Source: Cypionkella psychrotolerans
GTDB lineage: Bacteria; Pseudomonadota; Alphaproteobacteria; Rhodobacterales; Rhodobacteraceae
Assembly: GCF_001294535.1 (NCBI RefSeq)
Contig: NZ_LGIC01000086.1
Coordinates: 248,001-312,000, forward strand
DNA length: 64,000 nt
Reading direction: 5' to 3'
The notes beneath the pieces are model-generated. The model ran no database searches. It saw nothing but the letters and a program-made list of their open reading frames with translations, and was not told where the DNA came from. Position numbers and translations under genes: made by a program. Shown piece by piece: positions 38,625 to 61,008 of the stretch. Within the stretch, counting starts at the first letter, position 1. Each line of letters opens with the position of its first letter.

Positions 38625-38627
38625 CCC

Positions 38628-38702
38628 CTAAATCTATCTAAAATTGTCATCCTCTGCGCTCAAATATCCCACGGGGGTCTGGGGGTGTGAAACCCCCAGC
38701 TG
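38628..38702 (+). repeat. Dispersed intergenic repeat, family B, copy 1
   Basis: Matches 47973-48045 over about 70 bases with roughly 85-90% identity: both run TATCTAAAATT..CATCCTCTGCGC..CAAATAT.. and end GGGGTCTGGGGGTGTGAAACCCCCAGC. The 3' end contains a perfect 8-bp hairpin (CTGGGGGT with ACCCCCAG). Both copies sit just after a stop codon, on the coding strand. Confidence 0.75.
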
Positions 38703-38778
38703 CAACGCCCACCCCAAGCCAAACCTTGACCTCCCCCGCCCCACCTGCTTCAACCCAACCAAACCAATGCAGGCAGCC

Positions 38779-39117: not shown

Positions 39118-40193
39118 AGCACTTTTTGCACAGCCTCGGCCCCGCGATGCCTGCGCCAAAAGCCGTTGAGGCGTTGCGGGCCGGCACAGGTGCCGCCATT
39201 GGCCTCGGCCTTGCAGCGGCTCTCTTATGGCTGCTCGATCCAACCGCGAACATGATAGATCATCCACTGCTGATCGCCCCGTTTGGTGCTTCGGCTTTCC
39301 TGATCTTCGCCGTGCCGAACAGCCCGATGGCGCAACCGTGGTCGGCGGTGTTGGGCAACAGCGTCTCAGCCCTCGCCGCAATCCTTATCCTGCACGCGGG
39401 CCTGCCGGTGCTGCCCGCCGCCGCGCTTGCGGTGATGCTGGCGGTCCTCGCCATGGCCGCCTTGCGCGCCATGCACCCGCCCGGCGGTGCCGTGGCGCTT
39501 GCCACCGTGCTTTCCGCCCATCCCGACGCCTTGCCGGGCCTGCAGTATCTGCTGCTTCCGGTCGCCAGCGGCAGCCTTGCGCTTGTCGGCCTCGGTATCG
39601 CTTGGGCACACGCCACAGGTCGGCGCTACCCGTTCCGCATCGCGCCCGAGCCGACCCAGCACGGCACCAAAGACCCCGCCCCGGACCGCCGCTTCATCCC
39701 GTCGGAACAAGTGCTCGCCGCCACCCTCACCCGCCTGCGGCTCAGCGCCAACTTGGGCGTCGAAGACCTCGCCCGCCTGATCGAGACAGCCGAGACTGAG
39801 GCCAACGCCAGCCACCTCGGTCCGACCACCGCCGATCAAATGATGTCGCGCGACCTGATCCAAGTCGCCCCCGACACCCCGCTGCCCGTGCTTGCGGAAA
39901 GCTTCCGCGGCCACCGCTTCAAAACCCTGCCCGTGCGCAATCCCGATGGCAGCTTCGGCGGCCTCGTTTCGCAATCGGCTTTGGTGGGCCGCGCCGAGCC
40001 CAACCTGACCGCCCACCAGCTGATCGAGAGCGACCTGCGCAGCGCCAGCCCGCAAACGCCGCTCGCCGAACTGATCGCCCTGCTTGCCGACGGCGGCCAA
40101 CAAGCCGTGCCGGTGCTGGAGGCCAACCGCCTTGTCGGCCTGATCACCCGTTCAGATATGATCGCCCTGCTGTCCGGCCACATGCCCACTTAA
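39105..40193 (+). CDS. HPP family membrane protein with tandem CBS domains
   Basis: 362 residues. The N-terminal ~150 contain four membrane segments with the HPP signature MHPPGGAVALATVLS and the PLLIAPFGASAFLIFAVPNSPMAQP block. From about residue 240 two CBS domains follow (MMSRDLIQVAPDTPLPVLAESF, and ALLADGGQQAVPVLEANRLVGLITRSDMIALL). HPP proteins include nitrite transporters of cyanobacteria and plastids; CBS domains usually sense adenylates. The transported ligand is unknown here. ATG 39105 overlaps the preceding gene. Confidence 0.88.
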   Translation: MDYLKHFLHSLGPAMPAPKAVEALRAGTGAAIGLGLAAALLWLLDPTANMIDHPLLIAPFGASAFLIFAVPNSPMAQPWSAVLGNSVSALAAILILHAGLPVLPAAALAVMLAVLAMAALRAMHPPGGAVALATVLSAHPDALPGLQYLLLPVASGSLALVGLGIAWAHATGRRYPFRIAPEPTQHGTKDPAPDRRFIPSEQVLAATLTRLRLSANLGVEDLARLIETAETEANASHLGPTTADQMMSRDLIQVAPDTPLPVLAESFRGHRFKTLPVRNPDGSFGGLVSQSALVGRAEPNLTAHQLIESDLRSASPQTPLAELIALLADGGQQAVPVLEANRLVGLITRSDMIALLSGHMPT

Positions 40194-40212
40194 CACCCCA
40201 CGGAGACTGCAA

Positions 40213-40644
40213 ATGCCCCAAGTCTACGACACCCTGCACACCGCCTGTGCCGCCCTCGGCACCCGGCTGTTCACCGTCACCGTGCAAGACCTGAAGCTGG
40301 ACGTGGCCCGCCGCGCCTATACCTCGCATCCGGTCGAATACCCGGTATCCGGCACCAAACCGCTAACCCGCGACGGCTGGTATGACCACTGCATCACCGG
40401 CCAGCACACCTTCGTCGCCAACACCACGCCCGAATTCGCCAAGTACTTTTTCGACCACGAACTGATCTCCTCCCTCGGCCTCGGCTCCTGCATCAACATC
40501 CCGCTGGTGGAAGCCGGCCATGTCCTCGGCACCGTCAATCTGCTGGCTGAAGAACACCACTTCACCCCAGCGAAACTGGCCGCTTACGAGGCCCTCGTTG
40601 CCCAACACCACGCCGCCCTTGCCACTGAAATGGCCAAAGGCTAA
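40213..40644 (+). CDS. GAF domain protein
   Basis: 143 residues, essentially one GAF domain: TRLFTVTVQDL, ELISSLGLGSCINIPLVEAGHVLGTVNLLAEEHHFTPAKLAAYEALV. Such stand-alone proteins bind small molecules; the ligand and role are unknown. No output domain is attached. It follows the HPP/CBS gene by 19 bases and has a strong hairpin after it. Confidence 0.8.
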   Translation: MPQVYDTLHTACAALGTRLFTVTVQDLKLDVARRAYTSHPVEYPVSGTKPLTRDGWYDHCITGQHTFVANTTPEFAKYFFDHELISSLGLGSCINIPLVEAGHVLGTVNLLAEEHHFTPAKLAAYEALVAQHHAALATEMAKG

Positions 40645-48278: not shown

Positions 48279-48426
48279 CACGACCTCCCCAAATTTCGTG
48301 GCAGTACCTAAAAAAGCCACAAAAATGCGGCTGCAATATGGCGAGCATTGGAATGTCGGCCCAAAATCTACCAGTGCCGCCCCCGCAACCGCACCGAAAA
48401 ACCACTTAAGCCATTGATTTTATGTA

Positions 48427-48747
48427 TCAGTCAAAGAACGGCGTCATCTGCGCCACAACCACCGAATTCTCCGCCAAAGCCCGCGCCATCAGATCGCGTT
48501 CCTCAGCATCAATCTCATCGCCAGCCGCCAGACGCTCCTCCAGCGTGCCGTAACCGGACACATCCAGCGGTGCCAGATCCGCCTGCTTCAAGATCGCCAC
48601 GGTTTCGCGCACCGCCTCGGCCTCGTCGACGCCCGAGGCATAGATCAGCAAAGCCGCCCCGGTCGCCTTATCCGGCAAGCCATCGCCCGGCTTGCGCCCC
48701 ACTTCCACCGTCAAGGTATAAACCTGCTGTTTGCTGCCCTCTGACAT
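48427..48747 (-). CDS. Hypothetical protein downstream of dapD, 106 aa
   Basis: A small acidic protein (VYTLTVEVGRKPGDGLPDKATGAALLIYASGVDEAEAVRETVAILKQADLAPLDVSGYGTLEER) with alternating strand/helix character. No recognised domain. It starts six bases after the dapD stop and so is co-transcribed with it; coding-like composition and the tight gap support a real gene. Confidence 0.7.
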   Translation of the reverse strand: MSEGSKQQVYTLTVEVGRKPGDGLPDKATGAALLIYASGVDEAEAVRETVAILKQADLAPLDVSGYGTLEERLAAGDEIDAEERDLMARALAENSVVVAQMTPFFD

Positions 48748-48753
48748 CGGCCT

Positions 48754-49581
48754 TCAGTCCCTCAGCAATTCGTTGATCGAGGTCTTGCTGCGGGTCTTCG
48801 CATCGACCTTTTTCACGATCACCGCGCAATAGAGGTTGATCCCATTCTTCGACGGCATCGACCCCGCCACCACGACCGAACCGGCAGGCACTTCGCCATA
48901 CATCACCGCCCCGGTTTCGCGATCGACGATCTTGGTCGATTGGCCGATAAACACGCCCATGCCCAGAACCGAGCCTTCGCGGATGATGCAGCCCTCAACC
49001 ACCTCAGACCGAGCCCCAATAAAGCAGTTGTCCTCGATGATCGTCGGCCCCGCCTGCATCGGCTCCAACACGCCGCCAATGCCGACACCGCCCGACAAAT
49101 GCACATTCTTGCCGATCTGCGCGCAAGACCCGACCGTGGCCCAGCCGTCCACCATCGCGCCCTCATCAACATAAGCGCCAATGTTCACGAACGACGGCAT
49201 CAGCACCACGCCCTTCGCGATATAGGCGGAACGGCGCACGATACTGCCCGGAACCGCCCGGAACCCCGCTTTGCGCCAATCCGCCTCGGTCCAGCCCTGA
49301 AACTTCGACGGCACCTTGTCCCACCAGTTCGAGCCGCCATTGCCGCCAGAAATCTCGGACATATCGGTCAGCCGGAACGACAGCAGCACCGCCTTTTTCG
49401 CCCATTGGTTGACATGCCAATCGCCATTGCCGCGCTTTTCCGCCACCCGCAACGCACCACTGTCCAGCGCCGTCAACGTGGCTTCAATCGCATCGCGCGC
49501 TTCGCCCTTGGTGGTGGTCGAGATCGTGTCCCGCGCCTCCCAAGCAGCCTCAATCGCAGTCTCCAACGCGGCATAGCTCAT
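48754..49581 (-). CDS. dapD: Tetrahydrodipicolinate N-succinyltransferase
   Basis: A 275-residue trimeric left-handed beta-helix enzyme of the succinylase branch of DAP/lysine synthesis. N-terminal helical domain, then hexapeptide repeats with [32 protein letters not shown] and [33 protein letters not shown]-like steps; both blocks are diagnostic for DapD. ATG 49581 begins the conserved start. The partner dapE is on the same strand at 45507-46661, separated by the plus-strand Hint gene. Confidence 0.97.
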
Positions 49582-49650
49582 GGCAATCTCCTCAAAGCTT
49601 TGCAGCCCTATAACGACGCAGACCTTGCCATGCAATCGCATCAGGCACGG

Positions 49651-49676
49651 TAGGGTGGGTGCAACCCACCGCTGGT
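49651..49676. repeat. Short palindromic repeat, family C, copy 3
   Basis: GGTGGGT (49654-49660) pairs with ACCCACC (49664-49670); the flanks GTAG and GCTGGTT are the reverse complement of those around copy 2. It lies between the dapD start and the phytase-like gene end. Confidence 0.65.
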
Positions 49677-49801
49677 TCAGATTTGGCGCAACGTTCAAAA
49701 CCAATCGCCGCCCCTCAAATATTAAGGTACGACGATGATCCTAACCTGCAAACAGACCCACTCGCGTCCGACGCCCAAAGCCCCCGACGCAAGCGCCCTG
49801 C

Positions 49802-51973
49802 TTACTTCACTTCCCCAATCGACCAGAACAGCGTCTCACCCGAGCTGTCATCGACGCCGTCATTGTCCGTCACCACCCAGCCATTGCCTGCGGCGTCAAT
49901 CGTAAAGCCTTCGACCTTATCGACAATATAGCCCTTCAGCACGCCCAGATCGGGCACCAAATCCCGCACCAGTTCTTTCTTCACCACCGGAAGCGTGCCG
50001 CCCAACTCAACCGGAGCCAACTGGCTCACCGCCACCCGGTACAGCTTCTTGGTCACGGCTTTGTCGGCAATCTGGTTGTCCCGCTCGATGATATAAGCCC
50101 AATCACCCTTCACCGTGATTTCCGACAACCCCATCCAAGCGCCTTCAGCGGGCGCATCCAACGGATAATGCACCGCACCCCAAGTTTCCTCTTTGGTGTT
50201 ATAGGCCAGCAACTTGACCATGCCTTTCGGATCGTCCTTCCACTCGCGCTGCACCGCCATCCACAGGGTGTCACCCACCACCGTGATACCCTCAAACCCA
50301 TAGCGCGTCTCTTGCGCCAGCAGTTCCTCTGGCAGCGCAATCTCCTGATCAATCGCGCCCTCGGCATCGACATGATAGATCGCATGTGGCACCAGCTTGT
50401 CGCTGCGGCCTTCCGAAGCCAGCCAGAAGCCACCCTCGCCATCCGCCGCAATGCCCTCCAGATCCAGCTTCTGCGCCGCATCGCCGCCGCGCGTCACCAC
50501 CATCGCGCTGGTGATCTTCGCCGGGGTCTTCGTGGCATCAATGCTGAAAATCGTCGGTGCCGCCGCGTAAACGCTGTCCGACACCGCATAAAGTTTGCCC
50601 GCTTCCTTCGGATCAGCCGCCAGACCCGAAAGCGCGCCCCAACCGATCAGATTTTCACTGCCTGCCGAAGTGATCATCGGATAGGCCGCAGGCCCTTCCG
50701 CCAGTTGGTAAATCATCACATGCGCAGGCGCGCCGCCATCTTCGCGCAGATCAACCTCATTCGCCGAAATCAGCAGATTGCGCTGCGGAATAGCCACCAT
50801 CCCCTCGGGCGAAATCCCCGACGGCAACAGTTGCTTCAGCACCGGAGCCTTCGGGTCGGTCAGATCATAAACCCCAATCACCGAAGCCCGTTCCGACGCC
50901 ACAAACGCCATCGGCGTCTCGCCAAACGTCGCCACCTCAACCGATTCCAACTCGACACCTTTGGTCTTGCTGCGATGCTCCGGGTAATGCCCGATCTCAG
51001 CAATCGCCCGCTCCAAGCTGGCACCGCTTTCATAGACAACCGAGCCATCGCGGTTGAAAATTGTCCAACTGCGCGAGCCGCCCTTGTAGTCGCCCTCATT
51101 CGCCACCGCGAAGTGATCGGCATCCACCCATTTCACCCCATCCGGCTCACGCAAGGCACCCTCACGCTTGCCGGTGAAATCCAACCGACCATCGCGCTTG
51201 GTATCAATGCCGTCCAGATCAACCGCCCCGGCGCTGAAATGCCCCGAAACCTTGCCATCCGCGCCGATCAAAACGATCTCGTTGTTCTCCTGCATGGTCA
51301 GAACAATTTCACCCGCCGCATTGATATCCAGAAACTCCGGCTCGGGGTCATCGCCGCCAACACCCGCCAGCCCGGTCATCTCGATCTTCTGCAACCCGGC
51401 GCAATCGACCACGTCCGCCTTCACCGGCAGCTTCACCACAAAGCCCGTCGGCATCTGCGGCAGCTCACCGTCGTTCACATCCTCATCGCGCTCATTCTCG
51501 ATCGCAATCGCCAGAAACGAGCCATCCTTCGCCGCCGCCACCGAATCCGGCTGACCGCCCAATTCGCATTCCGCCACCACAGCCTTGGTCGCCAGATCGA
51601 CGCTGACCAGCTTGCCCGAGGTGTTGACATAATCCTTCGACGTATTCACCGCCGCAAAAGCCGTCCCGCCGATGATCTTCGCCGTGGTCGGCTCGCCGCC
51701 CACTACGATATTGCCCAACGGCTTCGGCGCGGCCGCATCGGTGATATCAATCAACCCGATCACCCCCAACGGGCTGTCGGTATAAACCAAAGTCATGCCA
51801 TCTTCCGAGGCCGAAATGATCTCAGCACTGGTCGCCCGCGCCAAATCCTCGCCCGCCGCCATGTTCAACGGCGTGGCAAAGCTGGCAATACGGTTGAAGC
51901 TAGGTTCGGCCAAAGCAGGCAAAGCCGCGCAAATCGCCAGAGCAGAGGTCAGGCCAGAGATCGGAAAACGCAT
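49802..51973 (-). CDS. Phytase-like (esterase-like activity of phytase) periplasmic protein
   Basis: 723 residues with a signal peptide (SALAICAALPALA then EPSFN) and two beta-propeller-like parts. Residues about 20-420 show YVTN-type repeats (GEPTTAKIIGGTAFAAVNTS, EPDGVKWVDADHFAVANEGDYKGGSR, LPSGISPEGMVAIPQRNLLISANEVD). The C-terminal ~300 match the phytase-like family (LSGLAADPKEAGKLYAVSDS, LDLEGIAADGEGGFWLASEGR, YGFEGITVVGDTLWMAVQREW, VEGFTIDAAGNGWVVTDNDG). A secreted phosphoester hydrolase is likely, but the substrate is unproven. ATG 51973 has AAGGA at good spacing, unlike the ATG at 51982. Confidence 0.82.
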   Translation of the reverse strand: MRFPISGLTSALAICAALPALAEPSFNRIASFATPLNMAAGEDLARATSAEIISASEDGMTLVYTDSPLGVIGLIDITDAAAPKPLGNIVVGGEPTTAKIIGGTAFAAVNTSKDYVNTSGKLVSVDLATKAVVAECELGGQPDSVAAAKDGSFLAIAIENERDEDVNDGELPQMPTGFVVKLPVKADVVDCAGLQKIEMTGLAGVGGDDPEPEFLDINAAGEIVLTMQENNEIVLIGADGKVSGHFSAGAVDLDGIDTKRDGRLDFTGKREGALREPDGVKWVDADHFAVANEGDYKGGSRSWTIFNRDGSVVYESGASLERAIAEIGHYPEHRSKTKGVELESVEVATFGETPMAFVASERASVIGVYDLTDPKAPVLKQLLPSGISPEGMVAIPQRNLLISANEVDLREDGGAPAHVMIYQLAEGPAAYPMITSAGSENLIGWGALSGLAADPKEAGKLYAVSDSVYAAAPTIFSIDATKTPAKITSAMVVTRGGDAAQKLDLEGIAADGEGGFWLASEGRSDKLVPHAIYHVDAEGAIDQEIALPEELLAQETRYGFEGITVVGDTLWMAVQREWKDDPKGMVKLLAYNTKEETWGAVHYPLDAPAEGAWMGLSEITVKGDWAYIIERDNQIADKAVTKKLYRVAVSQLAPVELGGTLPVVKKELVRDLVPDLGVLKGYIVDKVEGFTIDAAGNGWVVTDNDGVDDSSGETLFWSIGEVK

Positions 51974-52072
51974 CGAGAGCATCCTTGGTCAGATTAAATC
52001 AGACCCAGCCATGCCCTGCCCGGATGAAACCAAGACGACGCACACATGACAGTTTTACAACCGCCCCCACCG

Positions 52073-53104
52073 CTAATCCTGATACCCCTCGCCCCGCGCC
52101 GCCCGCAACGTATCGCGCGGACAAAGCCCAAACCGCGCCCGATACATCTCTGCAAACCGCCCGAAATGCGCAAATCCCCAGCGCAACGCCACCTCTGTCA
52201 CCGATCCCGCCCCCGCAACCAGATCGGCATGCGCATGCGCCAGCCGCATGTCACGCCAGAACCCCAGCGGAGTCGTCCCCCGGTGCTGCCGAAACGCCAG
52301 TTGCAACGCGCGCGGGCTGATCCCGGCCTCGGCGGCAATCGCCTCAACCGTTAGCGGCTGATCCAGATGGGCCGCGATATAGCCCTCTGCCAGCCGCAAA
52401 TGCCGGGGCCGCGGTGCCGCCCGCCGCCGCCCCAGATGCGCCGCATGATCATGGCGATGCGCCTCCAGCAGACCCGACAGCAGAGACGCCTCCACCGCCC
52501 GCCCCATCAACCCCGCCCCGATGGGTGATCGCCCCGCATCCGCCTCTGCCACCAGAAACAACACCAGCCGCCGCAGTGCCGCTCCCGCCCCACTGCGCAG
52601 ATCAAACCCGCCTGAAAACGTCAAAGGCCGCAAAGCTGGCGCCCCCAACTGTGCGGAAAGATGATCCTGCATCGCCTGACGGTCGATCTGGATCAGCACC
52701 TGCCGCGTACCTTCCGCCCAGATCATCGTGGTGGGCTGGTGCGGGTTCAAAACCGCCGCCACCTCCGGCGAGGAATAATACCGATCCGCCCCATGCGAAA
52801 TCATCGCGCCCCCCGAAAGCGGGATCTGCACCAGATAAAACCGCTCCAGCTCTCCCGGTGCGATCAGCGTCTTGGCGCCGTATTGAATGTAGTTCAGGCT
52901 CAACCGCTCGCCCGGCAAATGGTGCTGGCGGGCATCCAGCACGCCCGTGCCGATGCGGTCCAACCGATGCGGACAAAACACCGCCGCCACCCGCGCGCGG
53001 GCTTCGTCAAGGTCATGCGTGCGAAACAGCGCATGACGTTCCAGCGGGGCGGCAAGCTGCGGCATCAGCCTCATTCTCTGCAAATCAAGGCCAAAGCCTA
53101 CCAT
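52073..53104 (-). CDS. AraC/XylS-family transcriptional regulator
   Basis: 343 residues. The N-terminal half is an AraC-binding-like sensor (LSLNYIQYGAKTLIAPGELERFYLVQIPLSGGAMISHG). The C-terminal ~100 residues form two helix-turn-helix motifs (LTVEAIAAEAGISPRALQLAFRQHRGTTPLGFWRDMRLAHAH and SVTEVALRWGFAHFGRFAEMYRARFGLCPRDTLR). It is divergent from the SDR gene that opens the monooxygenase locus, with a direct-repeat candidate operator between them. It probably activates that locus in response to an aromatic substrate. ATG 53104 is a choice among several starts; ATG 53074 is also possible. Confidence 0.88.
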   Translation of the reverse strand: MVGFGLDLQRMRLMPQLAAPLERHALFRTHDLDEARARVAAVFCPHRLDRIGTGVLDARQHHLPGERLSLNYIQYGAKTLIAPGELERFYLVQIPLSGGAMISHGADRYYSSPEVAAVLNPHQPTTMIWAEGTRQVLIQIDRQAMQDHLSAQLGAPALRPLTFSGGFDLRSGAGAALRRLVLFLVAEADAGRSPIGAGLMGRAVEASLLSGLLEAHRHDHAAHLGRRRAAPRPRHLRLAEGYIAAHLDQPLTVEAIAAEAGISPRALQLAFRQHRGTTPLGFWRDMRLAHAHADLVAGAGSVTEVALRWGFAHFGRFAEMYRARFGLCPRDTLRAARGEGYQD

Positions 53105-53159
53105 GCTTTGCCGCCTCGCCAGCAGATTCCTGCAGTTTGATGACGATTTTTTCGTTTTG

Positions 53160-53192
53160 CGGATAGTCGCCCCGTTCCCCGGATAGCGCCCC
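53160..53192 (+). promoter_or_regulatory. Candidate AraC-type operator: direct repeats with 20-base period
   Basis: CGGATAG occurs at 53160 and 53180, each followed by (T)CGCCCCG. Two direct repeats about two helical turns apart are the expected AraC/XylS-dimer site; XylS/BenR half-sites carry GGNTA, matched here by GGATA. It lies 46 bases before the SDR start and just upstream of the regulator's own start, so it may serve both promoters. Confidence 0.55.
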
Positions 53193-53237
53193 GCCCCGCG
53201 CAGATCAAAGCTGACCCCATCAACGGGAGGAAATCCA

Positions 53238-54002
53238 ATGCGCGGACTAGCAGGCAAAGTGGCGATTGTGCCGGGCGGCAGCACCAAGATCGGCCAAGCC
53301 ATAGTGGCAGCCTTCCGCGCCGCCGACGTGCGGGTGATGGTGGCCGACATCGCCCCCGCCGCCGAATCCGAAGGCGTCGGCTTCCAGCCCTGCGATCTGC
53401 GCGACGATACCCAGATCGCGGCCCTCGTTGCCGCCACCAAAACCAAGTTTGGCCGGATTGATTTTCTGGTCAATGTCGCCTGTTCCTACCTCGACAACGG
53501 GCTTGCCACCACCCGCGCCGATTGGCTGACCGCCCTGGATATCAACCTCGTCGGCTCGGTGATGCTGATGCAGGCCGCGCAGGCGGACCTCGCCGCGAAC
53601 AAGGGGGCCATCGTCAATTTCAGCTCGATTTCCTCGCGCGTGGCGCAGACGGGGCGCTGGGTTTATCCGGTGTCGAAAGCCGCCATTCTGCAACTGACCC
53701 GCAGTCAGGCAATGGATCTGGCCCCGCAGGGCATCCGCGTCAACGCGGTGTCGCCCGGTTGGACGTGGAGCAATATAATGGATCAGCTGACCCACGGCAA
53801 CCGCGCCAAAACCGATGCCGTTGCCGCCCCCTTCCACATGCTGGGCCGCGTCGCCGATCCCGAAGAAGTCGCCGCCGCCGTGCTGTTTCTCTGCTCGGAC
53901 GAGGCTAGCTTCATCACTGGCACTGATATCTGCGTTGATGGCGGCTATACCGCGATGGGGCCGGAACAAGCCGTGCCAGCGATCCCGAAGCTGATGGAAT
54001 GA
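53238..54002 (+). CDS. Short-chain dehydrogenase/reductase (first gene of the monooxygenase locus)
   Basis: 254 residues. The cofactor loop is unusual (VAIVPGGSTKIGQAI in place of TGxxxGIG). The catalytic set is present: Ser in NFSSISSR, then YPVSK (Tyr-x-x-x-Lys), and the C-terminal FITGTDICVDGGYT is typical of SDRs. The Asn-Asn-Ala-Gly motif is replaced by NVACSY. Substrate unknown; as part of the AraC-controlled locus it may oxidise a dihydrodiol or hydroxylated product of the adjacent monooxygenase. GGGAGG precedes ATG 53238. Confidence 0.85.
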   Translation: MRGLAGKVAIVPGGSTKIGQAIVAAFRAADVRVMVADIAPAAESEGVGFQPCDLRDDTQIAALVAATKTKFGRIDFLVNVACSYLDNGLATTRADWLTALDINLVGSVMLMQAAQADLAANKGAIVNFSSISSRVAQTGRWVYPVSKAAILQLTRSQAMDLAPQGIRVNAVSPGWTWSNIMDQLTHGNRAKTDAVAAPFHMLGRVADPEEVAAAVLFLCSDEASFITGTDICVDGGYTAMGPEQAVPAIPKLME

Positions 54003-54047
54003 ACGCCCCACGGGCGCGAACCGAAAACCAATTCAAAGGGGCTAGAC

Positions 54048-55280
54048 ATGCGTAAATTCACCATCATCGGCGGCGGCCAATCCGGTCTTCAGCTTGGCAT
54101 CGGCTTGCTGCAAGCGGGCCATCAGGTGCGCGTCGTGCAAAACCGCACCGCGGAAGACGTGGCCCAAGGCAAAGTCCTGTCCAGCCAGTGCATGTTCTCC
54201 AACGCCGTGCAGCATGAACGCGACCTTGGCATTGATTTCTGGTCCACCGATTGCCCCCCGGTTCAGGGCATCAACTTCATCGTGCCAAACCCCGATGGCT
54301 CTGGCACCAAGCTGATCGACTGGGCCGCCCGGCTGGATCAGAACGCCTATTCCGTCGATCAACGGGTGAAAATCCCGCGCTGGATGGCTGAATTCAGCCG
54401 CCTCGGGGGTCAAATGGTGATCGCCGACGCAGGCATTGCCGAGATTGAAACCTACGCCCGCCAGGACGATCTGGTGATCATCGCCTCAGGCAAGGGCGAT
54501 GTCGGGCGGCTGTTCACCCGTGACGTTGAAAAATCCCCCTTCGACAAACCAATGCGCGCTTTGGCCCTGACCTATGTGACAGGCATGACGCCCCGGCAGC
54601 CCTATTCAGCGGTCGAATTCAACCTGATCCCCGGCGTCGGCGAATATTTCGTGTTCCCGGCGCTGACCACCACCGGCCCGTGCGAGATCATGGTGATGGA
54701 AGGCATCCCCGGCGGCCCGATGGATTGCTGGGCCGATGTAAAGACCCCCGCGCAGCATCTGGACACCGCACTGAACATCCTGAAAACCTTCTTGCCATGG
54801 GAATATGAACGCTCCAAAACCTGCCAACTCACCGACGACAACGGCATCCTGTCAGGCCGCTTCGCCCCCACCGTGCGCCACCCGGTCGCCACCCTGCCCT
54901 CGGGCCGCAAAGTTCTCGGCCTTGGCGATGCGGTCTGCCTGAACGATCCGATCACCGGGCAGGGCTCGAACAACGCCGCCAAAGCCGCCGCGATCTACCT
55001 CAACCGCATCATCCAACACGGTGACCGCCGGTTTGACGCCGCTTGGATGCAGGCCACGTTCGATCAGTTCTGGGATTACGCGCAATGGGTGGTTGGCTGG
55101 ACCAACATGCTGCTGCAACCGCCGCCGCCCTTCATCCTCGACATCATGGGCAACGCCCAAGGCCTGCCCACGCTGGCCTCGCGCATGGCCAACGGCTTTG
55201 ACGATCCGCGCGATTTCTTCCCGTGGTTCGCCGATCCCGACGCCGCCGCCAGCTATCTGGCCGAATTGAAAGCCGCCTGA
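54048..55280 (+). CDS. StyA/IndA-like FAD monooxygenase (group E)
   Basis: 410 residues related to the oxygenase component of styrene and indole monooxygenases. FAD-binding GxGxxG is at IIGGGQSGLQLGIGLL (residues 5-20), followed by the StyA-typical LSSQCMFSNAVQHERDLG. The second FAD segment is LGLGDAVCLNDPITGQGSNNAAKAA (about residues 284-308). These enzymes use FADH2 delivered by a separate reductase to epoxidise styrene or indole-type double bonds. The reductase gene follows one base after its stop. Styrene, indole or a related bicyclic heteroaromatic is the likely substrate class. Confidence 0.87.
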   Translation: MRKFTIIGGGQSGLQLGIGLLQAGHQVRVVQNRTAEDVAQGKVLSSQCMFSNAVQHERDLGIDFWSTDCPPVQGINFIVPNPDGSGTKLIDWAARLDQNAYSVDQRVKIPRWMAEFSRLGGQMVIADAGIAEIETYARQDDLVIIASGKGDVGRLFTRDVEKSPFDKPMRALALTYVTGMTPRQPYSAVEFNLIPGVGEYFVFPALTTTGPCEIMVMEGIPGGPMDCWADVKTPAQHLDTALNILKTFLPWEYERSKTCQLTDDNGILSGRFAPTVRHPVATLPSGRKVLGLGDAVCLNDPITGQGSNNAAKAAAIYLNRIIQHGDRRFDAAWMQATFDQFWDYAQWVVGWTNMLLQPPPPFILDIMGNAQGLPTLASRMANGFDDPRDFFPWFADPDAAASYLAELKAA

Positions 55281-55281
55281 G

Positions 55282-55782
55282 ATGAGCGTGATCGACACCC
55301 AATCCTTCCGCGCCGCAATGGCCCGTTTTCCGGGTGCCGTCACCATCGTCACCGCCCGCGCAGGTGCAGGCTCCGACGCCCGACGCGGCATCACCGCCAC
55401 CGCCGTCTGTTCCGTCACCGCCGATCCGCCCAGCCTGTTGGTCTGCCTCAACCGCCAGACCGGCACCTGCGCCGCGGTTGCTGCCAGTGGGCGCTTCAAC
55501 GTCAACCTGCTGCCCGGAGACGGCGGTCCGCTCGCCCTGCATTTCGCAGGCGCGGGCGGCGTAACCGGAGCCGACAAATTCACCACCGGCGCTTGGTGCG
55601 ACGACCCCCACGGCACCCCCATCCTGCAAGACGCGGCCCTCACCTTCTGCTGCACCGTCAGCGAAACCCTGCAAGCCGGATCGCACAGCATCTTCATCGG
55701 CCAAATCACCAGCCTCACCCACGGCGCAGGCCCAGCCCTGATCTACGCCCAAAGCGGCTTCCACCGCCTACAACCGCTCTAA
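55282..55782 (+). CDS. Flavin reductase (StyB-like) paired with the StyA-like oxygenase
   Basis: 166 residues of the flavin-reductase-like domain family: FRAAMARFPGAVTIVTA, TATAVCSVTADPPSLLVCLNR, then GRFNVNLL and SHSIFIGQI. It should supply reduced flavin to the preceding monooxygenase. Starts one base after that gene. The end overlaps the convergent MarR-type gene by four bases. Domain is firm, pairing inferred from context. Confidence 0.88.
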   Translation: MSVIDTQSFRAAMARFPGAVTIVTARAGAGSDARRGITATAVCSVTADPPSLLVCLNRQTGTCAAVAASGRFNVNLLPGDGGPLALHFAGAGGVTGADKFTTGAWCDDPHGTPILQDAALTFCCTVSETLQAGSHSIFIGQITSLTHGAGPALIYAQSGFHRLQPL

Positions 55783-56345
55783 GCCCGCCGATGCGTGGCA
55801 GCGACCCGCGCCACCTCCTCATAAATCCCGGTCAACACGTTCAACACCCGCGCGGCTTCAGCTAACCGGGTTGAGAACCCCGGCAAATTCCCCAACTCCG
55901 CCAACAACAACCGCCGCCGCAACGCACCGTAATCATCCGTCACCCGCCGCCCCTCGTCGGTCACCTCGTAAGTCACCCCCGACCGCCCCGCGCCCTTGCG
56001 CACCACCAGCCCGCCCCCGATCAGCTTGCGCAACGAATACTGGATGTTCGGCACATCATCGCGGTTGGCCAGCCGTGCTAGTTCCTTGATGCTTTTCGGG
56101 CGGTCATGCATCCGAATGATGTGTAGAAGCGCATTCTCCGGCCCCGAAGCAGGCATCTCGCACACCCCCGCCAGACATTCCGACTGCCAGCGCCCGAATC
56201 CCTCAAACGCCCGCATCAGCGCGAATTCCAACTCGGTAACCTCAACCTCAACTGCCGTTTCCGCCAGATGCCAGCGGTAATCCAACGCCTGCCCAGCGCC
56301 CTGCCCGCCGGTATCATTTTGAGTTTGAACCTTTTTTTCCGCCAT
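55779..56345 (-). CDS. MarR-type winged-helix transcriptional regulator
   Basis: 188 residues with a winged helix: ENALLHIIRMHDRPKSIKELARLANRDDVPNIQYSLRKLIGGGLVVRKGAGRSGVTYEVTDEGRRVTDDYGALRR, flanked by helices for dimerisation. Family resemblance is to MarR-like regulators of aromatic catabolism. It is divergent from the luciferase-family monooxygenase gene and probably represses that half of the locus. ATG 56345 follows GGGGCTGGGG; a 15-residue longer start (56390) is possible. Confidence 0.8.
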   Translation of the reverse strand: MAEKKVQTQNDTGGQGAGQALDYRWHLAETAVEVEVTELEFALMRAFEGFGRWQSECLAGVCEMPASGPENALLHIIRMHDRPKSIKELARLANRDDVPNIQYSLRKLIGGGLVVRKGAGRSGVTYEVTDEGRRVTDDYGALRRRLLLAELGNLPGFSTRLAEAARVLNVLTGIYEEVARVAATHRRA

Positions 56346-56389
56346 CACCCCAGCCCCTTGCCTGCCTGCATCCTCATCCGCCAAACCCA

Positions 56390-56417
56390 TTGACGCAATG
56401 CGAATTTACGATAGACT
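56390..56417 (+). promoter_or_regulatory. Candidate sigma-70 promoter of the RutA-like gene
   Basis: TTGACG (56390-56395), 16-base spacer, TAGACT (56412-56417). An AT-rich stretch with AATCAT repeated at 56422 and near 56439 follows and is a candidate MarR site. Confidence 0.5.
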
Positions 56418-56464
56418 TTCAATCATAAAATATAACCTAAAATCATCCTGACAGGGAGCCTACC

Positions 56465-57556
56465 ATGACCAACAACCCGATGCTCTCGGGCGATCGCTTT
56501 CGCTTGGGCACGTTTTCCTCCAACTGTTCCTCCGGCATGACCCCCACCAAAATCGCCGAACGTTGGGACAATTCCTGGGACAACAACCTCACCCTCGCCA
56601 AAATGCTGGACGAGGCGGGCATCGACTTCATGCTGCCCATCGCCCGCTGGATCGGCTACGGCGGCGAGACCGATTTTCACGGCAACGTGCTGGAAACCAT
56701 GACTTGGGCCGCAGGTCTGCTCGCCGCCACCAAGAATATCGCGGTGTTCGCCACCATCCACACCGTCGCCAATCACCCGGCGGTGGTCGCCAAGCAAATC
56801 GCCACCATTGATCAGATCGGCCATGGTCGCGCCGGACTGAACATCGTCGCGGGCTGGAACAAGCCCGAATACGAAGCCCTCGGCCTGACCCTGCCCGATG
56901 ATCACGAAACCCGCTATGCCTATGCACAGGAATGGTTCGATCTGGTGCGCAAACTCTGGGGGTCAAAGGAGCATTTCGACTGGAACGGCAAATATTTCAA
57001 AGCCAAGCAAATCAAGGGCGATCCCGCCCCGACCCGCGGCTCGGTGCCGATCATCAACGCCGCAGGCTCACCGCAGGGCCGCAACTTTGCCACCGACAAC
57101 GCCGATTTCCTGTTCACCCCGGCGATTGATCTCTCGCGCTCGGTCGGGGAAATCGCTGACCTGAAGGCGCAAGCCAAGGCCAAAGGCCGCAAGATCGACG
57201 TGCTGACCTTCAGCCATGTGATCTGCCGCCCCTCGCGGGATGAGGCCGAAGCCTTCCTGCACCACACCGCCGTCGCCAATACAGACACCGCAGCGGTGGA
57301 CAATCTGGTCAACCTGCAATTCGCCCACGCCCAAAGCTTCCCGCATGATCTGCTGGCCCAGATCAAGCACCTGTTTGCGATGGGTCACGGCGGCTTCCCC
57401 CTCGTCGGCACCCCGGATGATGTGGCCGAAGGCATCCTGAAACTCCACGCCACCGGATTTGCAGGCACCACGCTTTCCTTTGTGGATTATGTCAAGGAAT
57501 TCCCCTATTTCCGCGATACTGTGCTGCCAAAACTGCAAGAGGCGGGCATCCGCTGA
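56465..57556 (+). CDS. RutA-like luciferase-family flavin monooxygenase (group C)
   Basis: 363 residues of the LLM/bacterial luciferase TIM-barrel family. Blocks resembling RutA and related enzymes are WIGYGGETDFHGNVLETMTWAAGLLAATKNIAVFAT, QIGHGRAGLNIVAGWNKPEYEALG and the C-terminal FVDYVKEFPYF. RutA cleaves an amide C-N bond of uracil with a flavin-N5-oxide; relatives attack other heteroatom-containing substrates. No other rut genes are nearby, so the substrate is not simply uracil. A separate flavin reductase gene follows, completing a two-component system. It is divergent from the MarR-type gene. Confidence 0.85.
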   Translation: MTNNPMLSGDRFRLGTFSSNCSSGMTPTKIAERWDNSWDNNLTLAKMLDEAGIDFMLPIARWIGYGGETDFHGNVLETMTWAAGLLAATKNIAVFATIHTVANHPAVVAKQIATIDQIGHGRAGLNIVAGWNKPEYEALGLTLPDDHETRYAYAQEWFDLVRKLWGSKEHFDWNGKYFKAKQIKGDPAPTRGSVPIINAAGSPQGRNFATDNADFLFTPAIDLSRSVGEIADLKAQAKAKGRKIDVLTFSHVICRPSRDEAEAFLHHTAVANTDTAAVDNLVNLQFAHAQSFPHDLLAQIKHLFAMGHGGFPLVGTPDDVAEGILKLHATGFAGTTLSFVDYVKEFPYFRDTVLPKLQEAGIR

Positions 57557-57578
57557 CGGCTTGGGCCGCTGATTCCTT

Positions 57579-57604
57579 GCGGCACCGCCCCAACGCGGTG
57601 CCGC
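57579..57604 (+). repeat. Perfect 10-bp hairpin between RutA-like and reductase genes
   Basis: GCGGCACCGC (57579-57588) with GCGGTGCCGC (57595-57604), loop CCCAAC. Position inside the operon suggests mRNA processing or partial attenuation so that less reductase than oxygenase is made. Confidence 0.65.
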
Positions 57605-57622
57605 CCAAACCGCGAGTGCTCT

Positions 57623-58114
57623 ATGTCCGAACCAACGCCCAAGCACTTCCGCGACGCCATGCGCGCTTTCGTTGGCAACTGTAGCCTGATCACCACCGGG
57701 CAAGCCGAGGCCGCCACCGGTCTGATCGTCACCTCCGCCATTTCCCTTTCCGCCGAACCGCCGCTGCTGCTGGCCTGCGTCAACCGCAACTCGTCCAGTT
57801 GGCCCGTGCTGAAAGAAACCGGCAGCTTCGGCTGGTCCAGCCTTGGGGCCGCCCATCAGGGCGTCGCCGAACGCTTCTCCGGCTTCAACGGCACCAAGGG
57901 CCTCGCGCGCTATGACGGTGCCGAATGGGAAACCGCCGTAACGGGCGTCCGCCTGCTGAAAGGTGCGCCCACCGCCTTCGATTGTAGCATCGAAGAAATG
58001 ATCGACCGTGGCACCCATTCCATCCTGATCGGCCGCGTCCAAGCCATCCGCACCAACCCCGGCGCGGGCGCTTTGATCTACTGGAACGGCGGCTATCGCA
58101 GCCTTGCGGAGTGA
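57623..58114 (+). CDS. Flavin reductase (RutF-like) paired with the RutA-like oxygenase
   Basis: 163 residues: FRDAMRAFVGNCSLITT, TGLIVTSAISLSAEPPLLLACVNRNSSSW, GVAERFSGFNGTKGLARYD and GTHSILIGRVQAIR, the complete flavin-reductase-like signature. It lies 66 bases after the RutA-like gene on the same strand. It is more similar in style to RutF/HpaC reductases than to the StyB-like one upstream. Confidence 0.9.
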   Translation: MSEPTPKHFRDAMRAFVGNCSLITTGQAEAATGLIVTSAISLSAEPPLLLACVNRNSSSWPVLKETGSFGWSSLGAAHQGVAERFSGFNGTKGLARYDGAEWETAVTGVRLLKGAPTAFDCSIEEMIDRGTHSILIGRVQAIRTNPGAGALIYWNGGYRSLAE

Positions 58115-58268
58115 TCGTCGGCGCTAAGCCAGACGCCTGCTCTCGACCTCTAGCCAATGCCCGGCCCGTTTCCTGCGCATTCTCCATCCCCTGCGCCACA
58201 ACCGCAAGATACGGGTCGCTGCACGAAACCCTCACCGCCTAAGTCCCCGTCATACAAAACGGAAAGGC

Positions 58269-59030
58269 ATGACCATGGACCTCAACAACAAAACCATCCT
58301 GATCACCGGCGCAAGCAGCGGCATCGGTGCCGCCGCCGCCCTGCTATTCGCAGCGGAGGGCGCGCAACTGGTGCTCGGCGCACGCCGCCAACCCGAGTTG
58401 CAGCGGCTTGTCGACCAGATCACCGAAAGCGGCGGCAAAGCCATCTGCCTCGCAGGCGATGTCACGGATGAGACCTACGCCACAGCGCTGGTAGACCTCG
58501 CCGAAAGCCATTTCGGCGGCCTCGACGGCGCGTTCAACAACGCGGGCATCATCGGCGATATGGTTCCCCTGCCCGCCATGGCCACCGAGAACTGGCACAA
58601 CGTCCTCGCCACCAATCTCAGCAGCGCCTTCTTCTGCGCCAAAGCCCAACTCCCCGCGCTCGCCAAACGCGGCGGCGGATCGCTGGTGTTCACCGGATCC
58701 TTCGTCGGCTTTAGCAACAGCGGATTGCCCGGCATGGCCGCCTATGCAGCGTCGAAAGCCGGGCTGATCGGCCTGGTGCAATCCTTGGCCGCTGATCATG
58801 CCGCCGAAGCCATCCGCATCAACGCCATCCTCCCCGGCGGCACCAAAACTGCTTTGGCAGGCGACGACCCTGGCACCCATGATTTTATCGCCAACCTGCA
58901 CCCGATGAAGCGCATGGCCACCCCGACCGAGATCGCGCAAGCCGCCCTGTTCCTGCTGTCAGACCGCGCCAGCTTCGTGACAGGCGCAGCCCTTGCCGTA
59001 GACGGCGGTATGGCCGTGCGCTTGCTGTAA
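58269..59030 (+). CDS. Classical SDR oxidoreductase at the end of the locus
   Basis: 253 residues with all SDR landmarks: ILITGASSGIGAAAALLF, FNNAGIIGD, Ser in VFTGSFVG, YAASK, and FVTGAALAVDGGMA. The substrate is unknown; it probably oxidises or reduces an intermediate of the same pathway. ATG 58269 follows GGAAAGG; a second ATG lies two codons on. A strong hairpin follows the stop. Confidence 0.9.
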   Translation: MTMDLNNKTILITGASSGIGAAAALLFAAEGAQLVLGARRQPELQRLVDQITESGGKAICLAGDVTDETYATALVDLAESHFGGLDGAFNNAGIIGDMVPLPAMATENWHNVLATNLSSAFFCAKAQLPALAKRGGGSLVFTGSFVGFSNSGLPGMAAYAASKAGLIGLVQSLAADHAAEAIRINAILPGGTKTALAGDDPGTHDFIANLHPMKRMATPTEIAQAALFLLSDRASFVTGAALAVDGGMAVRLL

Positions 59031-59049
59031 TTTCCCGCGCAAACCCCTT

Positions 59050-59079
59050 GATCGTTGGCCGCAAACCCGGCCGACGATC
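59050..59079 (+). terminator. 12-bp hairpin after the catabolic locus
   Basis: GATCGTTGGCCG (59050-59061) pairs with CGGCCGACGATC (59068-59079) with one G-U, loop CAAACC. It lies 19 bases after the SDR stop; no T-run follows, so it may be Rho-assisted. Confidence 0.6.
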
Positions 59080-59269
59080 GCTCAAAGCGATCCCCATCCA
59101 GCCAAGCCCTTCGCCCGAAATCCTTAATTTTCTGTTAAAAAAATCGCAACCATCTGAATATTCTATACTTTCAAACGGTCCCAACTCGGGACCACCCCCA
59201 CCCCACCCTTCCAAACCCTCCCAAAACCCGCTACCCCTAGCCTCAACACGCCCCAATCAAGGCCACCCG

Positions 59270-60088
59270 ATGACCGAAGAAACCCGCCCCCACCCATTCC
59301 GAGACTCCGTCCAAGACGTGGCCGCCACCAACCGCCTGCCCGACACCCCGCAAACCCGCTCCCCCGCCTACCGCCTCGCTTTCAACGACCCCGACTTCCT
59401 GACCCGGGAAGACCTCCGTCCAGTCCGCCTCCAGTTGGAACTGCTGAAACCCCAACTGATCCTGGACGAGATGGGCATCACATCCACCGTCGTCCTGTTC
59501 GGCGGCGCCCGCATCCCTGATCCCGCGCACAAATCCATCGCGAAAACCCCGATGCTGGCGGATCTCACGAAATACTACACCGAAGCCCGCAGCTTCGCCC
59601 GCATCATCACGGAAAGAAGCCTGCAAACCTACGGCCATGAAAACGTGATCTGCACCGGGGGCGGGCCGGGGGTGATGGAGGCGGGGAACCGGGGCGCCGA
59701 TGATGCAGGCGGGCAGTCGATTGGCCTGAACATCGTGCTACCGCACGAGCAGGCCCCGAACCAATATGTGACGCCGGAATTGTCCTTCAACTTCCACTAT
59801 TTCGCGATCCGAAAGATGCATTTCCTGATGCGGGCGCGGGCGATTTGTGTGTTTCCAGGCGGCTTTGGTACGCTGGATGAGATGTTTGAAAGCCTGACCT
59901 TGATTCAAACCGGCCGGATGAAACCGATCCCGTTTCTGTTGTTTGGCCGCAGCTTTTGGGAGCGGTTGATTGACTGGAATATGCTGGCCGAGGCTGGGGT
60001 GATCTCGGCTGCGGATTTGAAGCTGTTTCAGTTTGTTGAGACGGCAGAGGAGGCGGTGGCGGCGATGGATGGCTGGGGCAAGGAATAG
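59270..60088 (+). CDS. LOG family protein (cytokinin riboside phosphoribohydrolase-like)
   Basis: 272 residues of the lysine-decarboxylase-like/LOG family: TSTVVLFGGARIPDP, VICTGGGPGVMEAGNRGADDAGGQSIGLNI and the signature FPGGFGTLDEMFE. Family members hydrolyse nucleoside 5'-monophosphates to base and ribose phosphate. The ~60-residue N-terminal extension before the Rossmann fold is common in alphaproteobacteria. ATG 59270 is the first ATG in frame near the conserved part, but its ribosome site is weak. Confidence 0.87.
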   Translation: MTEETRPHPFRDSVQDVAATNRLPDTPQTRSPAYRLAFNDPDFLTREDLRPVRLQLELLKPQLILDEMGITSTVVLFGGARIPDPAHKSIAKTPMLADLTKYYTEARSFARIITERSLQTYGHENVICTGGGPGVMEAGNRGADDAGGQSIGLNIVLPHEQAPNQYVTPELSFNFHYFAIRKMHFLMRARAICVFPGGFGTLDEMFESLTLIQTGRMKPIPFLLFGRSFWERLIDWNMLAEAGVISAADLKLFQFVETAEEAVAAMDGWGKE

Positions 60089-60552
60089 CCTGGGTTTGGC
60101 GGTGTCCACGCGTGGACAAAATTCCGACCTATACATTTCAATGGGTTACTCTGCCTCCGTTCATGGATTTTTAACACTTCTGCCATTTACGCCACACGCA
60201 GAATATTTGCCTTAGGATGCTGACTGAGGCTTCAAATCGCACAACACAGGGCAGCGCCTGACCGCCGGGTGAGCGCTGCAACAGTGGCTCTAGGTGCTTT
60301 ATGCCTCAGCAAATCCCCCAGATATTCTAAGCAGGACAGCGCAGAAGCGCCCGCCCGAGGGGGCGGTCAGGCGCTGCCCGGCGGCGCTGAAGCGCCTTGA
60401 TTCCGGGCTGGGGGCTTTGCTTGGGAGGTTGGAAGTTTGTAGTACAGCAGACAGAAAAATTTTTCCCTAATTCCAATCGAGGAATAGCTCGTAAACGACG
60501 AGGGCTTCTGTGAGTTTGGAACGCAATTGAAAACATACGAAATGAGGGCGAA
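60089..60552. other. 464-base intergenic region with palindromes, no gene
   Basis: No convincing coding frame. Contents: a 16-bp perfect palindrome at 60103-60118 (left half TGTCCACG), an 18-bp inverted repeat (60249-60266 and 60362-60379), a second short GGCGCTGAAGCGCC hairpin near 60383-60396, and a lower-GC stretch leading into the following gene. It looks like the edge of an accessory islet. Confidence 0.6.
60249..60379. repeat. 18-bp perfect inverted repeat flanking 95 bases
   Basis: GGGCAGCGCCTGACCGCC at 60249-60266 is the exact reverse complement of 60362-60379. No transposase lies between or beside; the enclosed 95 bases carry no gene. Confidence 0.8.
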
Positions 60553-61008
60553 ATGGATGTGAAATCTGCGCAGTCAACTGGAAATGCAGCACTGCACTAT
60601 GCTGCTTGGCAGCTTTCACGCAAAGGCTGGAACGTCATGGCTACCGCGCGCAATGCAAAAGGCAGCGATCTGTTCTGTGTGAATGACGATGAATCAATAA
60701 AGTTTGGCGTTCAAAGCAAAGGTCTGTCGAAACGCGATCCAGTTGGCCTTGGCGTTGACCTGAAAAATTTGCGCTCTGAATGGTGGATTATAACTATAAA
60801 TGCCAAACAAGATAACCCGGTATGCTTCATACTGTCGCTGGCAGAGGTGAAAAACCTTTGCTTTCACAGCGACCCAGCCAAAAGCAAAACCGGGGCACAA
60901 TCATATTGGCTGCAACCAACCAAATATGATCAACCTCAATTCAAGGAAGCGTGGCACAGATTAAATCCCCAAAGTTTACAAACAGCGGGTGATGTTTCTA
61001 TTTTATAG
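60553..61008 (+). CDS. Putative PD-(D/E)XK nuclease-like protein of an accessory islet
   Basis: 151 residues, clearly richer in A+T than neighbours and with different codon use, suggesting transfer. Sequence pattern fits a small PD-(D/E)XK fold: helix ALHYAAWQLSRKGWNV, then GSDLFCVN (Asp) and KFGVQSKGLS (Gln-x-Lys), followed by WWIITIN. No name can be given; resolvase-like or restriction-like nucleases share this pattern. ATG 60553 follows GAGGG. It has no partner gene, so a defence role is only a possibility. Confidence 0.6.
   Translation: MDVKSAQSTGNAALHYAAWQLSRKGWNVMATARNAKGSDLFCVNDDESIKFGVQSKGLSKRDPVGLGVDLKNLRSEWWIITINAKQDNPVCFILSLAEVKNLCFHSDPAKSKTGAQSYWLQPTKYDQPQFKEAWHRLNPQSLQTAGDVSIL

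Follow-up and report, generated by a model that had tools for sequence, protein, structure and literature searches.

Two linked flavin monooxygenase operons in Cypionkella psychrotolerans and their probable role in indole degradation through isatin

Two different two-component flavin monooxygenases are encoded side by side in a 64,000-nucleotide stretch of the Cypionkella psychrotolerans genome (assembly GCF_001294535.1, contig NZ_LGIC01000086.1, positions 248,001 to 312,000), hereafter the window, raising the question of whether both enzymes serve one catabolic pathway and, if so, which reaction the second of them catalyzes. Eight genes had been predicted at positions 52073-59030 of the window, and open reading frames together with Pfam and NCBIfam profile searches of the window confirmed all eight in their expected broad families. 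They are arranged as module 1, in which an AraC-type regulator gene on the minus strand is divergent to genes for a short-chain dehydrogenase (SDR1), the oxygenase IndA and the flavin reductase FR1 on the plus strand, and module 2, in which a MarR-like gene on the minus strand is divergent to genes for the oxygenase LLM and the flavin reductase FR2 on the plus strand; a gene for a second short-chain dehydrogenase, SDR2, follows. Based on gene content, linkage, co-occurrence, family identities and the residues of the LLM oxygen pocket, we propose that the modules are probably two oxygenase operons, each under its own regulator, that belong to one aerobic pathway for indole (and oxindole) proceeding via isatin, with LLM making isatin. 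The placement of the locus in an isatin pathway is very likely, while oxygenation of oxindole or dioxindole at C3 to give isatin is, on balance, the reaction that we favour for LLM.

The first oxygenase is of the indole monooxygenase type

The original prediction described the first oxygenase as StyA/IndA-like and named both styrene and indole as possible substrates. Its gene (54048-55280, plus strand; Smoa_sbd, 152.9 bits against a cut-off of 25) encodes a protein whose best solved relative is PDB entry 7z4x (634 bits), with StyA (3ihm) scoring 124 bits, and which falls short of the NCBIfam StyA equivalog cut-off (216.4 bits versus 550). The 7z4x record was deposited as a dehydrogenase/oxygenase subunit, and we take it to be VpIndA1, the indole monooxygenase of Variovorax paradoxus. 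IndA shares with VpIndA1 the fold and fingerprint of group E indole monooxygenases, a likeness that covers only the first of the two oxygenases. The fingerprint described for indole monooxygenases, S46-Q48-M50-V/I73-I76-A96 (PMC13101512), is matched in IndA by S45, Q47, M49, V72 and I75, in a numbering one lower than that published; Arg occupies position 95, and A96 is presumed to correspond to the Ala pair at 93-94. As judged from its sequence, the first oxygenase is thus a group E indole monooxygenase (IndA/IifC) and not StyA, and its indole fingerprint disfavours styrene as a substrate. Styrene oxidation as the main role was rejected on the basis of this fingerprint and the missed StyA cut-off. 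The flavin reductase partner of IndA, FR1 (55282-55782, plus strand; Flavin_Reduct, 126.1 bits), starts directly after the IndA gene ends.

LLM retains the oxygen pocket of RutA

The second oxygenase gene (56465-57556, plus strand; Bac_luciferase, 197.9 bits) encodes LLM, a group C two-component monooxygenase dependent on reduced flavin mononucleotide (FMNH2), with FR2 (57623-58114, plus strand; Flavin_Reduct, 113.5 bits) as its flavin reductase partner. Its earlier description as RutA-like held for the residues of the O2 pocket but not for family membership. LLM is about equally near SfnG, a dimethylsulfone monooxygenase (131.7 bits), and RutA, a pyrimidine monooxygenase (128.4 bits), and it reaches neither the NCBIfam equivalog cut-off for RutA (TIGR03612; 159.5 bits versus 498.3) nor that for SfnG (TIGR04021; 180.3 bits versus 382.95), the latter being its top NCBIfam model by bits. 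The predicted structure of LLM (mean predicted local distance difference test score of 87.6) gave PDB matches led by SfnG and then RutA at 25-28% identity, making SfnG its closest solved structure by both sequence and fold. LLM resembles RutA in its group C fold, its O2-pocket motif and its use of a flavin reductase partner, and differs from it in sequence (27-28% identity), in missing the curated cut-off and in its gene neighbourhood.

The residues that govern the O2 reactivity of RutA have been described as L65, T105, N134-x-V136 and F224 (PMC7662398, PMC8234197). Their equivalents in LLM are L57, T97, N126-x-V128 and F217, where the published numbering was taken as the chain numbering plus 19, an offset inferred from the fit of all five letters. 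Among 79 sequences including that of the window, with loci L103 and L106 excluded because of a stop or short match, L57, T97, N126 and V128 are kept in all 79 and F217 in 78. LLM is therefore expected to use a RutA-like O2 site, while SfnG has Ala at the position of T97 in the alignment. The same motif is reported for CmoJ, DmoA and DszA as well and does not fix the reaction of LLM. The nearest named relatives of LLM come from Cypionkella and Pseudorhodobacter metagenome-assembled genomes, both at 98% identity, and no description of the family was found in the open-access literature among the matches listed.

Isatin hydrolase accompanies LLM

A scan with the LLM protein alone yielded 80 named loci (prefix L; genomes carry the prefix G and contigs the prefix C), with flanks of up to 10 kb on each side and often less. 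Gene presence in these loci was scored by tblastn with hand-set identity thresholds or by genome searches, the open reading frame caller used being crude. A MarR homologue is present in the stretch of 67 of the 80 loci and an FR2 homologue in 49, and the commonest partners after these are IorB-like (22/80), cyclase-family (21/80), IorA-like (21/80) and ACMR-like (18/80) proteins. The L038 cyclase matches the Labrenzia isatin hydrolase 4j0n with 498 bits, and the one in the window's genome does so with 490 bits; the Cupriavidus L096 cyclase has a 451-bit match to isatin hydrolase 5nmp, such that isatin hydrolases are the best PDB matches of both the Rhodobacterales and the Cupriavidus proteins. 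As the flanks of many loci are cut, the counts of 21/80 for isatin hydrolase and 14/80 for IndA are lower bounds.

In searches of whole isolate genomes with a close LLM, isatin hydrolase was found in 49 of 49, spanning 23 genera and all passing a limit of 1e-60, with identities to the Rhodobacterales query of 58-94% in 31 genomes and 47-54% in the other 18. These genomes were chosen by LLM similarity and derive from 50 of the 80 loci; the 30 loci left out comprise metagenome-assembled or uncultured records, the isolates L104 and L108, and L095, which belongs to the same record as L093. As background for this count, the isatin hydrolase of L038 was used at the same limit to search 292 genomes from the order to which the window belongs; isatin hydrolase occurs in 43 of them, including all seven with LLM (p ~1e-6) and all five with IndA (p ~6e-5); here and below, p-values treat genomes as independent, though related genomes are not. 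Searches for IorA and ACMR-like proteins, confined to the same order sample, gave IorA in 50/292 genomes, again including 7/7 with LLM and 5/5 with IndA, and an ACMR-like protein in 123/292, including all seven LLM genomes. In a sample of 100 Burkholderiaceae genomes searched with the L096 query, isatin hydrolase was detected in ten, among them all three whose LLM is 68% identical or more; G332 and G337 were already among the 49, and only G412 is new. Rhodosalinus is apparently present in both samples (G124 and G311 have the same coordinates).

The constancy of isatin hydrolase in LLM genomes suggests that LLM more likely acts upstream of isatin. Isatin hydrolase tracks LLM more strictly than IndA does, and this, together with two gene contexts, makes a step into isatin the simplest role for LLM. 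Locus L088 of Iodidimonas encodes LLM together with isatin hydrolase, IorAB and an ACMR-like protein, and its genome gave no IndA at 1e-20 and no FAD-oxidoreductase of family f15, which is described below, at 1e-100; because these lower-pathway genes occur there without IndA or f15, LLM is the likely step into isatin. Marinobacter L102 holds IndA, SDR1, LLM, a flavin reductase, an ACMR-like protein, isatin hydrolase and IorAB together, with LLM placed between IndA/SDR1 and isatin hydrolase, and its genome likewise gave no f15 match at 1e-100. In Cupriavidus L090, L093, L096 and L097 the order, among the genes tested, is MarR divergent to LLM-FR-isatin hydrolase-IorA-IorB-thioesterase-ACMR-like.

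Linkage of the two modules

The two halves of the locus are linked beyond chance, in line with the original prediction of a shared pathway. At least 14 of the 80 LLM loci have IndA within the stretch; these show four or more gene orders and come from several genera of Alphaproteobacteria as well as from Marinobacter, and SDR1 is present in 13 of the 14. The order AraC-SDR1-IndA-FR1 followed by MarR-LLM is found in L032, L035, L038, L042, L044, L045, L052 and L106; AraC-FR1-SDR1-IndA followed by MarR-LLM-ACMR-like in Kaistia L057, Agrobacterium L060 and L064, and Rhizobium L075; and module 1 is inverted in L053. In the order sample, IndA at 70% identity or more occurs in five genomes (disregarding a sixth match of 24%) and LLM in seven, with three genomes holding both (3/5 versus 7/292, p ~8e-5), on different contigs in two of the three.

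The modules are also found apart. Locus L033, compared with 48400-61000 of the window, is syntenic on both sides and is without 52061-55773, which is essentially all of module 1, and without SDR2. In L032 there are internal deletions in AraC, SDR1 and SDR2, while MarR (95% identity) and LLM (98%) are present in full and FR2 is kept. Solo MarR-LLM loci, with or without a flavin reductase, occur in Mesorhizobium and Rhizobium. As separate observations, the LLM of L106 and the IndA of G334 (Cupriavidus sp. UYMMa02A, C34) lie in two pieces or frames, reflecting either gene decay or assembly error.

Lower pathway genes in the C. psychrotolerans genome

All parts of a lower pathway, namely isatin hydrolase, IorAB and an aminobenzoyl-CoA-type oxygenase, are present in the 5.08 Mb genome that contains the window (G000). 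The isatin hydrolase lies on a contig other than that of the window (C88:35413-36198) and matches 4j0n, the isatin hydrolase of Labrenzia aggregata (PMC6117287), over nearly its full length with the 490 bits given above. It is clustered with the f15 FAD-oxidoreductase (36205-37773), a MarR-type gene, IorA (38244-40382) and IorB, and a family-5 ABC importer adjoins. With 268.4 bits for the IOR_alpha model (cut-off 650.9), IorA is, by this measure, not a standard indolepyruvate enzyme; IorAB would act on isatinate. The aminobenzoyl-CoA-type oxygenase is encoded by the ACMR-like gene (C6:114857-117139), which is accompanied by genes for RidA, a thioesterase, an acyl-CoA dehydrogenase, enoyl-CoA hydratases, a hydroxyacyl-CoA dehydrogenase-like protein and a kynureninase-like pyridoxal phosphate enzyme, with some of the neighbour names on C88 and C6 assigned from sequence, as distinct from family searches.

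Several further features of these clusters were observed. The region G000:C88:26000-45900 (L118) has FAD oxidoreductases of families f13 and f15 flanking isatin hydrolase, and f15 gives carotenoid-desaturase-like NCBIfam matches below cut-off. The kynureninase-like enzyme beside the ACMR-like beta-oxidation cluster (L119:11110-12240) scores 85.8 bits against a cut-off of 246.4. On a 205 kb plasmid of Alloyangia pacifica (L112), an IndA cluster, an ACMR-like gene, RidA, isatin hydrolase, f15 and IorA are found together, with homogentisate genes adjoining.

Proposed pathway and alternatives

Partner genes point to a pathway for an indolic lactam, as the original prediction of an indole-like compound oxidized to a lactam had it. 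The substrates, products and order of steps set out here are what we infer for the window's enzymes. IndA, supplied by FR1, would epoxidize indole at C2-C3, and SDR1 would convert the resulting dihydrodiol to 3-hydroxyoxindole (dioxindole), with some oxindole possibly also forming. Repression by the MarR-like protein would be relieved by the indolic lactam, and LLM with FR2, using FMNH2 and O2, would oxygenate the lactam at its acidic C3, converting oxindole to dioxindole, dioxindole to isatin hydrate, or both, and so yield isatin. The isatin hydrolase encoded elsewhere in the genome would then open the isatin ring to isatinate, which IorAB, also encoded elsewhere, would convert to anthraniloyl-CoA. 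Finally, a bifunctional flavoprotein encoded elsewhere (a monooxygenase with an Old Yellow Enzyme-type reductase) would dearomatize anthraniloyl-CoA so that it can enter beta-oxidation, and RidA would assist in the loss of the amino group. Other enzymes are known to hydroxylate oxindoles at C3: a Rhodococcus study reports conversion of 3-methyloxindole to 3-hydroxy-3-methyloxindole, and IacE is reported to give a C3-hydroxylated product from 2-oxoindole-3-acetate. MsuD has been proposed to hydroxylate a carbon acid via a flavin N5 peroxide, so a RutA-type O2 site does not exclude C3 hydroxylation by LLM.

A number of observations weigh against this proposal. Enzymes with an O2 pocket of this kind include some whose targets are electrophilic carbons, for instance amide carbonyls in the case of RutA, as well as others (DmoA, CmoJ). 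Thirty-six of the 43 isatin-hydrolase genomes in the order have no LLM, and none is annotated in a 25 kb section of the Alloyangia pacifica plasmid that carries linked pathway genes, indicating that other enzymes can make isatin. In the Burkholderiaceae sample, a 47% LLM homologue (G393) occurs without isatin hydrolase, while the other weaker homologue (42%) occurs with it. IndA at 54-84% identity was found in only 21 of the 49 LLM genomes, with one further homologue at 32% and 27 genomes without a match at 1e-20; four of the seven LLM genomes in the order sample likewise gave no IndA match, and one of the seven LLM matches themselves (G171) is partial, covering residues 122-281. The modules are thus separable, and LLM cannot depend on the product of IndA alone, while the original prediction of one indole-type pathway is upheld without strict coupling of the halves. 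Lastly, NCBIfam names the ACMR-like protein a salicylyl-CoA 5-hydroxylase/oxidoreductase (1252.7 bits, above the cut-off of 1078), although the presence of RidA, which would fit removal of an amino group after dearomatization, favours anthraniloyl-CoA over salicylyl-CoA. Where LLM is absent, f15 beside isatin hydrolase is another candidate for the isatin-forming enzyme, as a dioxindole oxidase. A strictly complementary relationship, in which f15 substitutes for LLM, was considered and is not supported, as f15 is present in 46 of the 58 genomes of the set.

These same observations bear on four other explanations. If the modules were independent neighbours, with IndA serving indole, LLM serving another indolic lactam (2-oxindole-3-acetate or exogenous oxindole) and only the lower pathway from isatin in common, the 27 LLM genomes without IndA, the retention of module 2 in L033 and L032, the separate regulators and the solo loci would all be accounted for; we nevertheless consider this unlikely given that linkage recurs in four or more gene orders and that LLM is enriched in IndA genomes, albeit with the modules on different contigs in two of three cases. 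The main rival as to mechanism, the original prediction that LLM opens the ring as a RutA-like enzyme, would have a flavin N5-peroxide attack the C2 carbonyl of oxindole, dioxindole or isatin and cleave the C2-N1 bond. This draws on the conserved L-T-NxV-F motif, on N5-peroxide amide cleavage in the literature and on the 128-bit match to RutA, yet RutA's cut-off is missed, SfnG is no more distant in either sequence or fold, and a hydrolytic opener of isatin is encoded in 49/49 LLM genomes and lies 3' of LLM-FR in the four Cupriavidus loci. The presence of this hydrolase would make oxidative opening of isatin redundant, but not that of oxindole. We therefore regard isatin hydrolase as the more likely ring opener and a lactam-cleaving LLM as improbable.

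LLM might instead act after isatin hydrolase, converting isatinate to anthranilate by oxidative decarboxylation through peroxide attack on the alpha-keto acid. Nucleophilic peroxide chemistry suits alpha-keto acids, and the association with isatin hydrolase would be the same, but IorA, the likely isatinate oxidoreductase, is present in 7/7 LLM genomes of the order, so that the step would be doubled, and we view this role as very improbable. Least credible of all, to the point of being close to dismissed, is a sulfone or sulfonate monooxygenase of the SfnG/SsuD type with no connection to indole: SfnG leads both the structural matches and, by bits, the NCBIfam models, whereas its cut-off is missed, T97 is replaced by Ala in SfnG and isatin hydrolase accompanies LLM in every one of the 49 genomes. 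Returning to LLM as an isatin-forming enzyme, we tentatively extend the proposal to suggest that a widespread family of two-component flavin mononucleotide-dependent monooxygenases with a RutA-type O2 pocket may make isatin from oxindole or dioxindole by C-H oxygenation and not by amide cleavage, providing an indole route via isatin that would bypass IifA and free anthranilate.

Relation to described systems

In the iif/ind pathway, IifCD forms indole-2,3-dihydrodiol, IifB converts it to 3-hydroxyindolin-2-one and IifA yields anthranilate (PMC6221969, PMC12538310). The iif/ind (dho/ipo) clusters of Acinetobacter, Cupriavidus, Burkholderia and Pseudomonas (PMC6221969, PMC12538310) have their AraC regulator, short-chain dehydrogenase (IifB), IifC and IifD in common with module 1, which thus contains the iif/ind core that had been predicted. 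The accounts of these clusters given in the two sources name no LLM, consistent with the prediction that a RutA-like module is absent from them, and the combination seen here, which had been suggested to be undescribed, was not found described in the open-access literature among the matches listed. The window's genome further differs from the iif/ind systems in carrying isatin hydrolase, IorAB and the LLM module and in having no close match to the presumed IifA: only partial matches of 34-38% were obtained, versus full-length matches of 74-75% in four Cupriavidus genomes. The query was the 415-residue dienelactone-hydrolase-type first gene product of a Burkholderia pyrrocinia cluster, which was taken as IifA by position; a Providencia gene in the A position has been described as a cyclase (PMC9871250). 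On a B. pyrrocinia plasmid (L114), an iif-type cluster is followed by genes for a transporter, a serine hydrolase, a hypothetical protein, and (2Fe-2S)- and molybdopterin-binding proteins, a possible oxindole-forming route.

The iad locus for the auxin indole-3-acetic acid (IAA) is reported to have dioxindole, isatin and isatinic acid as intermediates and has, as here, iorAB-type genes and MarR regulators (PMC9613470, PMC12633357). It starts with the Rieske-type IadCDE acting on IAA, and the main text of neither paper was found to contain the word 'luciferase' (PMC9613470, PMC12633357). Whether isatin takes part in indole degradation is listed as an open question in a review that considers the isatin hydrolase gene worthy of functional study (PMC6221969). 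In the locus and its relatives, an indole monooxygenase and a candidate isatin-forming enzyme are accompanied by isatin hydrolase, an IorAB-type oxidoreductase and an aminobenzoyl-CoA-type oxygenase. This gives a concrete set of genes with which the question would become testable if our proposal is correct. The proposal would then also give a function to a subfamily of Bac_luciferase proteins that occurs here alongside isatin hydrolase in 23 genera, and would extend RutA-type flavin enzymes to indolic lactams.

Regulators, dehydrogenases and the module 2 promoter

The AraC/XylS-type regulator of module 1 (52073-53104, minus strand; Pfam AraC_binding_2, 145.8 bits, and HTH_18) has as its nearest NCBIfam model AndR, the anthranilate dioxygenase regulator, at 146.6 bits against a cut-off of 350. 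Its open frame extends to a TTG at 53473 that overlaps SDR1; the likely start is an ATG at 53104, 53074 or 53065, as called homologues in L038 and L052 begin close to these positions. SDR1 (53238-54002, plus strand; NCBIfam PRK08265, 370.7 bits, above its cut-off of 294) is an IifB-like short-chain dehydrogenase, consistent with its suggested conversion of indole-2,3-dihydrodiol to dioxindole. The MarR-like winged-helix regulator of module 2 (55779-56390, minus strand; HTH_27, 45.2 bits) converges with FR1, their ends overlapping by four bases (55779-55782), which argues for two transcription units.

SDR2 (58269-59030, plus strand; NCBIfam PRK07478, 379.8 bits, above its cut-off of 267) begins after a 154-base gap from FR2. 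The gene is present as predicted, while at 45% identity or more SDR2 is beside LLM in none of the other 80-locus set except, in partial form, L032, and it was set aside as a pathway enzyme on this account. Looser clustering, at 29-40% identity, groups it with short-chain dehydrogenases near ACMR-like genes, leaving its link to the pathway uncertain.

The region between the divergent MarR-like and LLM genes (56391-56464) contains both TTGACGCAA and GATAGACTTTCAATC. In 20 chosen MarR/LLM regions, mainly from kin of the window, TTGACGCAA occurs in 13 and GATAGA in 15, compared with 21 and 29, respectively, of all 64 divergent regions, so the shared promoter motif is held by a minority of the latter. 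No exact 6+6 inverted repeat was found in the window's MarR/LLM region, where the dyad is visible only by comparison: GATAGA-CTT-TCTATC is intact in L041 but carries a single mismatch in the window. Conserved chiefly in close relatives, this dyad may be a MarR operator lying over the promoter.

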